Under the pieces are notes generated by a model that worked only from the letters and a program-made list of their open reading frames with translations, was not told the origin of the DNA and did no database searches. Shown one piece after another: positions 35,095 through 38,716 of a DNA stretch of 64,000 bases. The stretch's first letter is position 1; each line of letters starts with the position of its first letter. The stretch spans positions 744,001-808,000 of the forward strand of contig NZ_CP079737.1 of assembly GCF_019916025.1 (NCBI RefSeq), written 5' to 3'. The translations under genes were made by a program, and so were the position numbers. The DNA comes from Paraclostridium bifermentans. GTDB taxonomy: Bacteria; Bacillota; Clostridia; Peptostreptococcales; Peptostreptococcaceae.

Positions 35095-36483
35095 ATGGAA
35101 AATTCATTAGCAAGAAGTTTTAAATTTTCATCACTTATAAAGTTCACTATACCATCTATTGTTATGTTGGTGTTTATATCTTTATATACGATTGTAGATG
35201 GGGTGTTTGTATCTAGATTTGTAAATACAGATGCATTGTCAGCAGTTAACATAGTATATCCGTTTTTAAATATTGTAATAGCTGTTGCGGTAATGTTAGC
35301 TACAGGTGGAAGTGCAGTGATAGCTAAAAAATTAGGAGAAAATAAAAGTAGAGAAGCTAAAGAAAACTTTACTTTAATTGTATTGATAGGATTTATTTTA
35401 GGAATTTTAATATCTTTAATAGGATTTATATTTTCTAATAAAATTTTGAATTTATTAGGGTCTACAGATGAGTTGTATAAGTATTGTATAGACTATTTTT
35501 CTGCGCTTCTTATATTTGCGCCAGCATTTATAGTCAACTTATTATTTCAATATCTAACAATAACAGCAGGAAAGCCAAAAGTAGGGCTTACTTTGACTAT
35601 AATTGGTGGTCTTACTAATATGATTTTAGATTATATATTTATAGTTCCAATGAATATGGGAATATCTGGAGCAGCTATTGCAACTGGTATGGGAAATTTA
35701 ATACCAGCAGTACTTGGAACTATATATTTTATGAAAAAGAAATCTATTATTCATTTTGTAAAACCAAGATTTGATTTAAAGGTAATATTAAAAGCGTGTT
35801 CTAATGGTTCTTCAGAGATGGTTACAAATCTTTCAACTGGAGTAACTACTATGTTATTTAATTTAGCAATGATGAAATTATTAGGAGCAGATGGAGTAGC
35901 AGCTATAACTATAGTTTTATATGGAGAATTTTTAATAAATTCTGCATATATAGGATTTTCTTCTGGAGTTGCGCCAATTATAAGTTATAATTATGGTAAT
36001 GATAATAAATCAGAACTTAAAAAAATAATTAAGTACAGTATAAGATTTATATTAATGAGTTCAGTTACTTTATTTATAATTGCAATATTATTTGCTCCAA
36101 ATATAGTAGGAATATTCTCGCCTAAAGGAACTAGTGTGTTTGATATAGGATATAAAGGTTTTTCACTTTTCTCACTAAGTTTTTTATTTACGGGAATAAA
36201 TATTTTCTCATCAGCTATGTTTACAGCATTTTCAAATGGGAAAATATCAGCAGCTGTATCATTCTTAAGAACATTTGTATTTATAATATCAGGAATATTA
36301 ATTTTACCTAGATTTTTAGGTGTAAATGGAGTATGGCTTGCAGTACCAATAGCAGAAGTTTTATCTATGATAATTTCTGTGACTTTTATATATAGATATA
36401 GAAATGTTTATGGATATGGAAAAGAAACTGAAACTCATAAAGAAAATAAAGAAAAGTCATATAAAGATATAAAGGAGTTTTAG
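35095..36483 (+). CDS. MATE family efflux transporter (second)
   Basis: 462 residues, twelve membrane helices. N half: SLIKFTIPSIVMLVFISLYTIVDGVFV and GGSAVIAKKLGENKSREAKENF; C half: SEMVTNLSTGVTTMLFN and SYNYGNDNKSELKKIIKYS. This is a NorM/MepA-like multidrug exporter by family. TTTAGGAGG precedes the ATG. The pentapeptide gene starts 2 bp after its stop, so the two form one operon behind a MerR-type promoter. Confidence 0.93.
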   Translation: MENSLARSFKFSSLIKFTIPSIVMLVFISLYTIVDGVFVSRFVNTDALSAVNIVYPFLNIVIAVAVMLATGGSAVIAKKLGENKSREAKENFTLIVLIGFILGILISLIGFIFSNKILNLLGSTDELYKYCIDYFSALLIFAPAFIVNLLFQYLTITAGKPKVGLTLTIIGGLTNMILDYIFIVPMNMGISGAAIATGMGNLIPAVLGTIYFMKKKSIIHFVKPRFDLKVILKACSNGSSEMVTNLSTGVTTMLFNLAMMKLLGADGVAAITIVLYGEFLINSAYIGFSSGVAPIISYNYGNDNKSELKKIIKYSIRFILMSSVTLFIIAILFAPNIVGIFSPKGTSVFDIGYKGFSLFSLSFLFTGINIFSSAMFTAFSNGKISAAVSFLRTFVFIISGILILPRFLGVNGVWLAVPIAEVLSMIISVTFIYRYRNVYGYGKETETHKENKEKSYKDIKEF

Positions 36484-36485
36484 AT

Positions 36486-37124
36486 ATGAAAAATAAAATA
36501 CAAGAGCCAAAAATAAGCAATAATTTGGGGATACCAACGAATGTAATTGATGAAATTTTTGAAGAGGAATACTTAGAAAATAAAATAATTGAAAATACTA
36601 CAATATCAGGTATTTATGAAGTTAGGCTTAGTTTGAATTCTTGTATATTTAAAAATGTGGAATTTGAAAGTTGCGATTTTAGAAAAATTGATATAACTGA
36701 TGTGATATTTGAAAATTGTAATTTATCGAATATTAATTTTGATGATAGTGGTATTTATCGAACTAAATTTGTAAATTGCAAGTTGACCGGAACGTTGTTT
36801 GAAGATGCGATTTTAAAAGATGTTGAATTTAAAGATTGTTTAGGTAGATATTCTAATTTTTCATTTTCAAAATTTAAGGGAGTTTTAATTACAGATTCAG
36901 ATTTTCAAAATGCAGTTTTCCAAGAAGTACAAAATAATAAACTAATATTAAATTCTTCAGATTTAAATAGTTCTATATTTAGTGGAACTCAATTGAATGG
37001 GGTTGACTTTACGACTTCTAGTATAGACGGTTGTGAAGTTAAACTAAATGATCTAAGTGGAGCTACATTTTCGGTTGCACAAACTTTAGAGTTAGCTAAA
37101 CTAATGGGGATAATAATAAAATAG
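36486..37124 (+). CDS. pentapeptide repeat protein, Qnr-like
   Basis: 212 residues, close to the 210-220 of Qnr proteins. From about 45 to 195 it follows the A(D/N)LXX five-residue rhythm with aromatic or Leu centres (CIFKNVEFESCDFRKIDI, ENCNLSNINFDDSGIYRTKF), i.e. a right-handed quadrilateral beta helix. It ends with a short helix TLELAKLMGIIIK, like the dimer-forming end of Qnr. Qnr proteins shield DNA gyrase from fluoroquinolones; chromosomal relatives occur in several Gram-positives. Cotranscription with a multidrug pump supports a defence role, but resistance is inferred. Confidence 0.8.
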   Translation: MKNKIQEPKISNNLGIPTNVIDEIFEEEYLENKIIENTTISGIYEVRLSLNSCIFKNVEFESCDFRKIDITDVIFENCNLSNINFDDSGIYRTKFVNCKLTGTLFEDAILKDVEFKDCLGRYSNFSFSKFKGVLITDSDFQNAVFQEVQNNKLILNSSDLNSSIFSGTQLNGVDFTTSSIDGCEVKLNDLSGATFSVAQTLELAKLMGIIIK

Positions 37125-37175
37125 AAAAAATAGGCTGGTTATAAATATTTAGTAAACTTAATCAGTCTATTTTTT
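37125..37175 (+). terminator. terminator after the Qnr-like gene
   Basis: AAAAAATAGGCTG and CAGTCTATTTTTT pair with one wobble around a 26-nt loop. It separates the MATE-Qnr operon from the rhodopsin-like gene. Confidence 0.75.
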
Positions 37176-37224
37176 GTTAATTTGGTAAAGATAGGATTAT
37201 AAGTAAAAATGAAAGGATATTAAA

Positions 37225-37914
37225 ATGAAGCACGAAATTATATTGATAAATTGGGCATGTATATTCCTTATGTTAGTAGGAATGCTTATGATAATATTTA
37301 TGAGAAAAAAGATAGATTATGTTCCTAAGAAATTTTATAATTTAAGTTTTTATGCGTTATTAATCTCAGTATCTTTATATATCATTAAAGCTATTTTTAT
37401 GAACATACATCCAAGTAGGAGTTTTTACATGATAATTATATATTTAGATTGGTTGATTATAACTCCTATGCTAATTAATATATTAGGATCAATTGGAATG
37501 TATTATGATCATAAAAACAAGAAGCTTGTATTAGGTATAATTTTTGTATATTTGATTATGGCAATTAGCTTTATAACTTCAAACAATACAACTGGCTTTA
37601 CAAATGGTATTACACTTTTGATTAGTTGTGTGTTTTTTATTATAAACTTCTGGCTAATTTGGGGACCTTTAGAAAATATAGCTAGTCTTCAAGGGTGTTA
37701 CGAATATAAATTATATAAACTATTAGCTTTGTTTACTACAATAATTTGGATAGGATATCCTGCATTATGGGGAATAGGGCCTAGGGTTTTAGATATAATA
37801 AATCATAAATTATATATATATTTTAGAATAATAATTCCTACTATATATAAGTTAGGATTTATATTTATAGCATTACATGGAGTGAAAAAGGTAAATAAAA
37901 TTAAACAGCATTAA
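37225..37914 (+). CDS. divergent microbial (type 1) rhodopsin-like protein
   Basis: 229 residues with seven predicted membrane helices (about 5-26, 37-59, 67-94, 100-118, 124-147, 164-185, 197-220). Anchors line up with bacteriorhodopsin: KKFY after helix A; YLDWLIITPML in helix C (D75 at the D85 place, T80, P81); IIWIGYPALWGIG in helix F (W175, Y178, P179, W182, G185); YKLGFIFIAL in helix G with K209 at the retinal Lys216 place. Departures are Ile72 for Arg82, Ile79 for Thr89, Ile86 for Asp96 and Pro205 for Asp212. A light-driven pump is therefore doubtful; a sensor or other use is possible. AAAGGATA precedes the ATG; a terminator precedes the gene. Confidence 0.78.
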   Translation: MKHEIILINWACIFLMLVGMLMIIFMRKKIDYVPKKFYNLSFYALLISVSLYIIKAIFMNIHPSRSFYMIIIYLDWLIITPMLINILGSIGMYYDHKNKKLVLGIIFVYLIMAISFITSNNTTGFTNGITLLISCVFFIINFWLIWGPLENIASLQGCYEYKLYKLLALFTTIIWIGYPALWGIGPRVLDIINHKLYIYFRIIIPTIYKLGFIFIALHGVKKVNKIKQH

Positions 37915-37998
37915 AAAATTATAATTTAAGTTTAACGTTTCATTTTAATTTGTCATAAAATAAAATTTTTATAAAAAATATTTTTTTTAATATGGAAT

Positions 37999-38028
37999 TT
38001 GGTAAAAATCTGTAGTACTATGTATACA
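37999..38028 (+). promoter_or_regulatory. candidate promoter of the C-rich RNA at 38035
   Basis: TTGGTA (37999-38004), 18 bp, TATACA (38023-38028). The -10 lies inside the perfect 14-bp palindrome CTATGTATACATAG (38018-38031), a possible operator. Confidence 0.45.
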
Positions 38029-38034
38029 TAGACA

Positions 38035-38216
38035 ACAAGATTAGACAAAAAACAACTAGAAAACAATAGGAATTGACATAAATATTAAAGCGGGTGTTCA
38101 TTCTCCCAATGACACCCTTATAACCTTTAGATGAAATACTATCCCCCCATAAATAGTATTTTAAACCTAATACCCACCCATTTAAAAGACTGTATCGGAA
38201 ACAGTCTTTTTTTTTT
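38035..38216 (+). ncRNA. candidate small RNA with C-rich loops (sRNA-A)
   Basis: This fills the 352-bp gap before the DUF188 gene. Hairpin 1 (38092-38117) pairs GGGTGT and CAT with ATGACACCC around a TCTCCCA loop. Hairpin 2 pairs 38134-38141 with 38154-38161 around a loop with CCCCCC. A single-stranded TACCCACCC follows, then a terminator (10-bp stem 38184-38193/38201-38210, T10). No open frame of note. C-rich loops that pair with Shine-Dalgarno sequences are the mark of RsaE-like trans-acting RNAs. A cis leader is less likely since the next gene has its own TATAAT near 38231. Confidence 0.6.
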
Positions 38217-38266
38217 CGATTATTTTAGTTTATAATTAAGTGAAGTCAAATGATTAGGAGAATGAT

Positions 38267-38716
38267 ATGAAAATTTTAATAGATGCAGATGGATGCCCTG
38301 TTGTTGATATAACTATAGAAGTTGCGAAAAAACTTGGAATAGAAGTAATACTAATGTGTGATACTTCTCATATATTTAATAAGCAAGGTATAGAAACTAT
38401 AATTTTATCTAAAGGGGCAGACTCTGTAGATTTTGCATTAGTAAACAAGGTTAAGAAAGGTGATATAGTAGTAACTCAAGATTATGGACTTGCGGCTATG
38501 GTTTTAGCTAAATCAGGTAATCCAATAAATCAAAATGGTAAGCTTTATACAAGTGAAAATATTGATCAATTATTATTTACAAGACACATATCTAAAAAAG
38601 CTAGAAATGCAGGTTCCAGAATGAAAGGACCTAAAAAAAGACAAAAAGAAGATGATATAAACTTTAAAGATAACTTAATTAAATTAATCAACAATCTTAA
38701 CAATTCATCCATGTAA
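38267..38716 (+). CDS. YaiI/YqxD family protein (DUF188, PIN-like)
   Basis: 149 residues. The start MKILIDADGCPVVD and the stretches GADSVDFALVNKVKKGDIVVTQDYGLAAMVL and HISKKARNAGSRMKGPKKR define the UPF0178 family, a NYN/PIN-like fold with acidic residues D7, D9 and D54 placed as in a metal nuclease site. Activity has not been shown for the family as far as I know. AGGAGAATG leads into the ATG. It converges on topB, and its stop lies inside the shared hairpin at 38715. Confidence 0.92.
   Translation: MKILIDADGCPVVDITIEVAKKLGIEVILMCDTSHIFNKQGIETIILSKGADSVDFALVNKVKKGDIVVTQDYGLAAMVLAKSGNPINQNGKLYTSENIDQLLFTRHISKKARNAGSRMKGPKKRQKEDDINFKDNLIKLINNLNNSSM

Follow-up and report, generated by a model that had tools for sequence, protein, structure and literature searches.

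Here, we report that the window, the whole stretch of 64,000 nucleotides of Paraclostridium bifermentans DNA that was analysed, carries a gene for a real type 1 rhodopsin of the xenorhodopsin clade, and that this gene is maintained while its protein is changing unusually fast between species. Judged from its residues, the protein is probably a non-pumping xenorhodopsin that works as a sensor. Paraclostridium is an anaerobic, spore-forming genus. Rhodopsins are mostly associated with lit, aerobic habitats, since retinal is a product of oxygen-dependent carotenoid cleavage.

The open frame translates into 229 residues (Table 1) and matched the Pfam family Bac_rhodopsin at E 4e-19, scoring 69.4 bits (cut-off 24.6) and covering profile positions 5-223 of 224. 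A match of this score over almost the entire profile is not due to chance, therefore a chance open reading frame was rejected. An unrelated seven-helix family was ruled out as well, Bac_rhodopsin being the sole Pfam match up to E 1; NCBIfam gave no family for the protein at E 0.01. Residues 7-229 aligned over the full length with Anabaena sensory rhodopsin (ASR), and the seven helices were inferred from this alignment. The five best-scoring distinct sequences among solved structures were those of ASR (best 2m3g, 2.8e-20) and of the Bacillus coahuilensis xenorhodopsin BcXeR (best 7zmy, 1.5e-19), and the first chain of another kind was 6kfq at E 2.6e-10. The same gap was seen when structures were searched with a profile of nine xenorhodopsins, ASR and BcXeR themselves included (1.1e-99 and 3.5e-95, then 1.6e-45). 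Since its nearest solved relatives are ASR and BcXeR, we place the protein among the xenorhodopsins. An earlier note on this DNA had proposed a type 1 rhodopsin with a retinal-site lysine, and the profile search, the structural relatives and the alignment all bear this out, retinal binding itself being predicted from the residues. The AlphaFold model (mean pLDDT 56, pTM 0.40) has long helices consistent with seven spans; it is a poor model, made from a two-row alignment (A2) of the window protein and its Paraclostridium benzoelyticum orthologue.

Table 1. Features of the rhodopsin locus, in positions of the window; bR, bacteriorhodopsin.
Feature	Position	Strand	Basis or remark
Pentapeptide-repeat protein gene, upstream syntenic neighbour	36486..37124	+	
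Upstream element, ATTTGG to start codon	37180..37224	+	Possible promoter or leader region
AAAGGA ribosome-binding site, 7 nt before ATG	37212..37217	+	GAAAGGA kept in G001, G002, G004
Xenorhodopsin-clade type 1 rhodopsin gene, 229 aa	37225..37914	+	Profile match, alignment, tree; seven helices by alignment
Ile72 codon (bR Arg82)	37438..37440	+	Alignment
Asp75 codon (bR Asp85, Schiff-base counter-ion)	37447..37449	+	Invariant in 9 aligned sequences
Arg201 codon (bR Phe208 position, helix G)	37825..37827	+	Arg only in window protein and G001 among 9 rows
Pro205 codon (bR Asp212; xenorhodopsin hallmark)	37837..37839	+	Alignment and PMC3198991
Lys209 codon (bR Lys216, retinal Schiff-base lysine)	37849..37851	+	Invariant in 9 aligned sequences
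Ala216 codon (ASR Asp217 / PoXeR Asp216, inward-pump proton acceptor)	37870..37872	+	Alignment and PMC5118547
YaiI/YqxD-family gene, downstream syntenic neighbour	38267..38716	+	

For the residues we use the bacteriorhodopsin (bR) numbering and a list of 20 pocket positions, which we take to be the standard ones. The alignment confirmed the identities given in the earlier note, with Lys209, Asp75, Ile72, Pro205, Ile79 and Ile86 at bR 216, 85, 82, 212, 89 and 96, where bR itself has Thr at 89 and Asp at 96. Out of the residues of a bR-type outward pump (Asp85, Asp96, Asp212 and Arg82), Asp85 alone is kept. The view of that note that proline at 212 is an oddity and a lost counter-ion had to be given up: Ugalde et al. 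describe the substitution of Asp212 by Pro as universal and diagnostic for xenorhodopsins (PMC3198991), so Pro205 is ordinary in this protein. What is truly unusual is an Ile at both 82 and 89, a Tyr at 215 and how fast the whole protein changes within the genus. Position 82 differs between species, being Ile in the window protein and G001, Lys in G003 and Arg in G004, and at position 215, next to the lysine on its N-terminal side, canonical copies have Ser where Paraclostridium has Tyr or Phe. A tyrosine beside the Schiff-base lysine may crowd the pocket. Replacement of Arg82 is shared with the Alt-rhodopsins, for which PMC9601134 reports Ile at this position fewer than 10 times; what sets the present case apart is that a single genus has Ile, Lys or Arg there, depending on the species, at the same syntenic locus. 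The same paper states that xenorhodopsins carry Trp or Phe at the Arg82 position, whereas ASR, BcXeR and four clostridial copies carry Arg there. Arg201 in helix G and Lys55 in helix B, in the presumed extracellular halves, are found only in the window protein and G001, where Arg82 is lost, and one may speculate from this pattern that they compensate for it.

The window genome and G001 belong to the same genus, Paraclostridium in the GTDB sense, and P. benzoelyticum JC272 (93% identical) is the only close relative that carries a name. A full copy was present in four of six genus genomes; together with the G002 copy, which breaks off after 52 codons where its contig stops, five of six carry the gene at one syntenic site. 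No rhodopsin was found in G005, a genome of 1.0 Mb that is 75% complete. The family search matched 4/71 genomes, all of them Paraclostridium, and missed the G002 piece; the other genera of the family had none (0/65). In wider samples, which partly overlap, 6/393 genomes of the order passed the Pfam cut-off (the four of the genus, G113 and G136), 3/391 of the class did so (the window genome, G498 and a weak partial match in G398 of 26 bits over 95 profile positions, just above the cut-off), and 2/398 of the phylum (the window genome and G1106) matched profile A1. Below the Pfam cut-off were G145 and G208 in the order sample and G615, G630 and G759 in the class sample. One further hit, L003 from Cardiobacteriaceae with 29 residues matched, was taken as chance and left out. 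Our search for papers on clostridial, Paraclostridium, Paeniclostridium, Peptostreptococcaceae or anaerobe rhodopsins, conducted outside subscription journals, found none on a Paraclostridium rhodopsin.

The order MATE, pentapeptide-repeat protein, rhodopsin, YaiI, topoisomerase is common to the window genome (G000), G001, G003 and G004, and G002 has the same order as far as its contigs reach. In a tree of 12 rows, two of them proteobacterial rhodopsins and all others xenorhodopsins, the full Paraclostridium copies, four in all, grouped together (94/95, just short of the program's mark for good support) and formed with the clostridial G113, G498 and G1106 one group (96/99), the order within which the tree leaves unsettled. 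Since all copies lie between the same genes and cluster in the tree, independent acquisition by each species is not favoured; replacement by homologous recombination at the locus is possible. As to a phage or plasmid origin, there was no phage match, and the 95 pattern hits in viral contigs contained no relative. Three plasmid matches were obtained, all proteobacterial and 24-27% identical; the two examined, from Pantoea and Sphingomonas, have a brp/blh gene beside the rhodopsin.

The approximately 45 bases before the start codon are near-identical in G000, G001 and G002, partly kept in G004 and absent from G003. A sigma-70 scan of 36400-38400 gave 12 sites against 15.3 in shuffles, with no plus-strand site within the upstream element; one terminator-like site lies at 38184-38210, and Rfam gave no match at gathering score in the window. 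In G002 (L021:150-404, minus strand), about 150 bp of extra sequence, partly G+C-rich and palindromic, separate the pentapeptide-repeat gene from the rhodopsin leader, and the core pattern of this sequence has no counterpart in the window even with 3 mismatches allowed. The pentapeptide-repeat gene adjoins the rhodopsin in all five genus genomes where the latter was found, and its product in the window scored far under the cut-offs of the Qnr-family profiles that it matched (56.6 bits at best, cut-off 240).

Compared with ASR (2m3g/1xio; ASR numbering derived from the structure-search alignment), the window protein keeps the equivalents of Lys210, Asp75, Pro206, Tyr73, Trp76, Tyr179 and Trp183. 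It differs in having only 26% identity to ASR in alignment A1, in the replacement of Arg72 by Ile, Thr79 by Ile, Ser209 by Tyr, Asp217 by Ala and Glu36 by Phe, and in its locus, where the flanks are the pentapeptide-repeat protein and YaiI and no ASRT-type transducer gene was recognised beside the rhodopsin. With BcXeR (7zmy) it shares the clade, Pro at 212 and a single counter-ion; however, identity is again 26% in alignment A1, and the window protein is without Arg82 and the cytoplasmic Asp. The clostridial xenorhodopsins of the same order, class or phylum (G113, G136, G498, G1106) have, in contrast, the ordinary ARYLDW or ARYIDW and SKVGF residues. The loci of these four ordinary xenorhodopsins are L022:7352-8050, L023:7034-7732, L029:1444-2160 and L034.

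The rhodopsin changes much more than the genes around it. Identity to the window protein is 214/229 in G001, 81/223 in G004 and 79/223 in G003, that is, about 35% between species, whereas neighbours in G004 and G003 are 70-82% (MATE, pentapeptide, YaiI) or 91-95% identical (CFA synthase, topoisomerase). Accordingly, NG86 dN was 0.60 (G004) and 0.64 (G003) for the rhodopsin against 0.03-0.18 for five neighbours. Tree branches in Paraclostridium were 0.81 (G003), 0.95 (G004) and 1.3 (stem of the window protein and G001), compared to 0.11-0.27 in clostridial copies and 0.63 in ASR and BcXeR. For the recent pair, window and G001, dN/dS was 0.11 (NG86) or 0.08 (ML), values also spanned by those of the neighbours. 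The frame is open in each of the four full copies, and when unconstrained drift was simulated with 150 substitutions, roughly half the number that separates the window from G004, the frame stayed open in 0/1000 runs. The low dN/dS of the recent pair and the simulation together show that the gene is kept. A codon model in which the long genus branches were neutral fitted worse (log-likelihood -4628 vs -4604), these branches being saturated. Between species, NG86 gave a dN/dS of about 0.6, and codon ML fits, whose distances were saturated, ranged from 0.007 to 0.32 (one fit used 223/243 columns); since synonymous distances are saturated or nearly so, no deep dN/dS is claimed, and the case for rapid change and upkeep draws on dN compared with the neighbours and on the recent pair. 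As a separate observation, codons for the same residue differed between the window and G001 at 35/199 sites in the rhodopsin and 123/1897 in five neighbours (Fisher p 6e-7), and DNA identity of window positions 37400-37800 to L009 dips to 0.90. The excess synonymous divergence inside the gene suggests local recombination.

The survey of related clostridia found the equivalent of Lys209 in all four full genus copies, and Lys216, Asp85, Tyr83, Leu93, Met118, Tyr185 and Trp189 (7/20 pocket positions) are identical among them. The window residue is absent from all five canonical copies at 7/20 pocket positions as well (bR 89, 122, 137, 138, 141, 142 and 215). Retention was tested with invariance defined by five canonical xenorhodopsins, the counts having emerged before the tests, which were not planned beforehand; the G002 piece (52 residues) was excluded from tree, pocket table and tests. 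The window protein kept canonical-invariant positions more often in the pocket (11/15) than elsewhere (20/55, Fisher p 0.018), and so did G004 (14/15 vs 23/55, p 3e-4), while G003 tended in the opposite direction (6/15 vs 38/55, p 0.07). With three clostridial copies as the reference, the pocket was still favoured in the window protein (12/17 vs 33/93, p 0.014) and G004 (16/17 vs 36/93, p 2e-5), and no difference was observed for G003 (8/17 vs 58/93, p 0.29). The excess of pocket positions identical across all three lineages was not significant (7/20 vs 43/226 over all columns, p 0.06). We read this pattern as pointing to retention of retinal, or of a similar ligand, by the window protein and G004, with doubt in G003. 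The G003 orthologue (L008:7622-8308) keeps Lys216 and has Cys for Trp86, Phe for both Trp182 and Pro186, and Ser for Pro212; it is a candidate for a rhodopsin fold that may no longer bind retinal. Because the lysine has outlasted these four residues there, it alone is no proof of retinal binding.

Whole-genome profile searches for BCD, SQS_PSY and RPE65 genes found none in seven genomes (0/7), so that the earlier statement of no retinal or carotenoid gene nearby can be extended genome-wide for these three families. Among control genomes, SQS_PSY matched 7/14, RPE65 2/14 and BCD 0/14; the BCD negative is weaker because its profile matched no control genome, although it does recognise the Brp/Blh-annotated protein of the Pantoea plasmid. 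G113 (85% complete) and G136, which bear ordinary xenorhodopsins, gave no match to the three families either. Thus, retinal scavenging, if real, would not be special to Paraclostridium, and the missing matches alone do not mean that there is no retinal.

Taken together, we put roughly even confidence in a genus-specific, fast-evolving xenorhodopsin that would use scavenged retinal and act as a non-pumping receptor. It is an integral membrane protein that would most likely still hold a retinoid on Lys209, with Asp75 as the sole counter-ion. The retinal would be drawn from outside the cell, a source proposed because the cell shows no sign of a synthesis pathway. The protein would then serve as a light- or ligand-switched receptor with a putative partner, and not as a pump, since the cytoplasmic carboxylates of proton-moving xenorhodopsins are missing. 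In inward pumps, as described in PMC5118547, the Schiff-base proton moves to a cytoplasmic Asp with the help of a Glu (D216 and E35 in PoXeR; ASR D217 is the counterpart of D216), PoXeR D216N does not form the M state, and a single counter-ion is normal. The window protein has Ala216 at the position of this Asp and Phe37 at that of the partner Glu (ASR E36), and no acidic residue other than Asp75 lies in a span core, with the spans taken from the alignment; this makes a proton pump unlikely. The earlier argument against a normal proton pump, which had been made from bR residues, would therefore extend to the inward pumps. A light-driven inward proton transporter, or a proton leak along a rerouted path, would suit the clade and the single counter-ion, but both carboxylates are missing, the lost M state of PoXeR D216N speaks against it, and we regard it as very unlikely. 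The cytoplasmic Asp is not universal in canonical copies, G113 having Asn and G498 Val.

A seven-helix protein free of retinal, put to a light-independent use with Lys209 kept for structure or for another ligand, seems possible, if somewhat unlikely. The lack of matches to the three pathway families in seven genomes, the anaerobic life of the genus, the very rapid change of the protein and the tendency to a less-kept pocket in G003 would all fit it; however, five residues including the lysine and the counter-ion (Lys216, Asp85, Tyr83, Tyr185, Trp189) do not vary among the four full copies, the pocket is preferentially retained in the window protein and G004, and G113 and G136 likewise gave no match to these families with an ordinary pocket. 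The rapid change, several-fold that of the neighbours, together with the loss of canonical residues at different places in each species and the lack of a hit in the incomplete G005, could also indicate relaxed selection on a gene heading to loss after a horizontally acquired xenorhodopsin had become useless in anaerobes. This we consider improbable, as four open frames, a closest-pair dN/dS of about 0.1, the drift simulations and the poorer fit of neutral, if saturated, branches stand against it. A more tentative and rather doubtful idea is that within this one genus the opsin is giving up light sensing and becoming a receptor for a different signal, perhaps a host or dietary retinoid itself or another aldehyde; the lysine and counter-ion would be kept and the rest of the pocket rebuilt in each species, and Arg201 and Lys55 may replace Arg82 in the window lineage.

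Xenorhodopsins have been reported from fermentative Nanohaloarchaea (PMC4766312), so there is precedent for bearers living at low oxygen. That an anaerobic clostridial genus maintains a xenorhodopsin and shows no sign of the synthesis pathway raises the question of whether anaerobes scavenge retinal or have put the opsin fold to a use that does not involve light. Paraclostridium offers a natural series at one locus, with a near-canonical pocket in G004, an altered one in the window protein and a heavily altered one in G003; thus, the question is open to side-by-side comparison of three orthologues.
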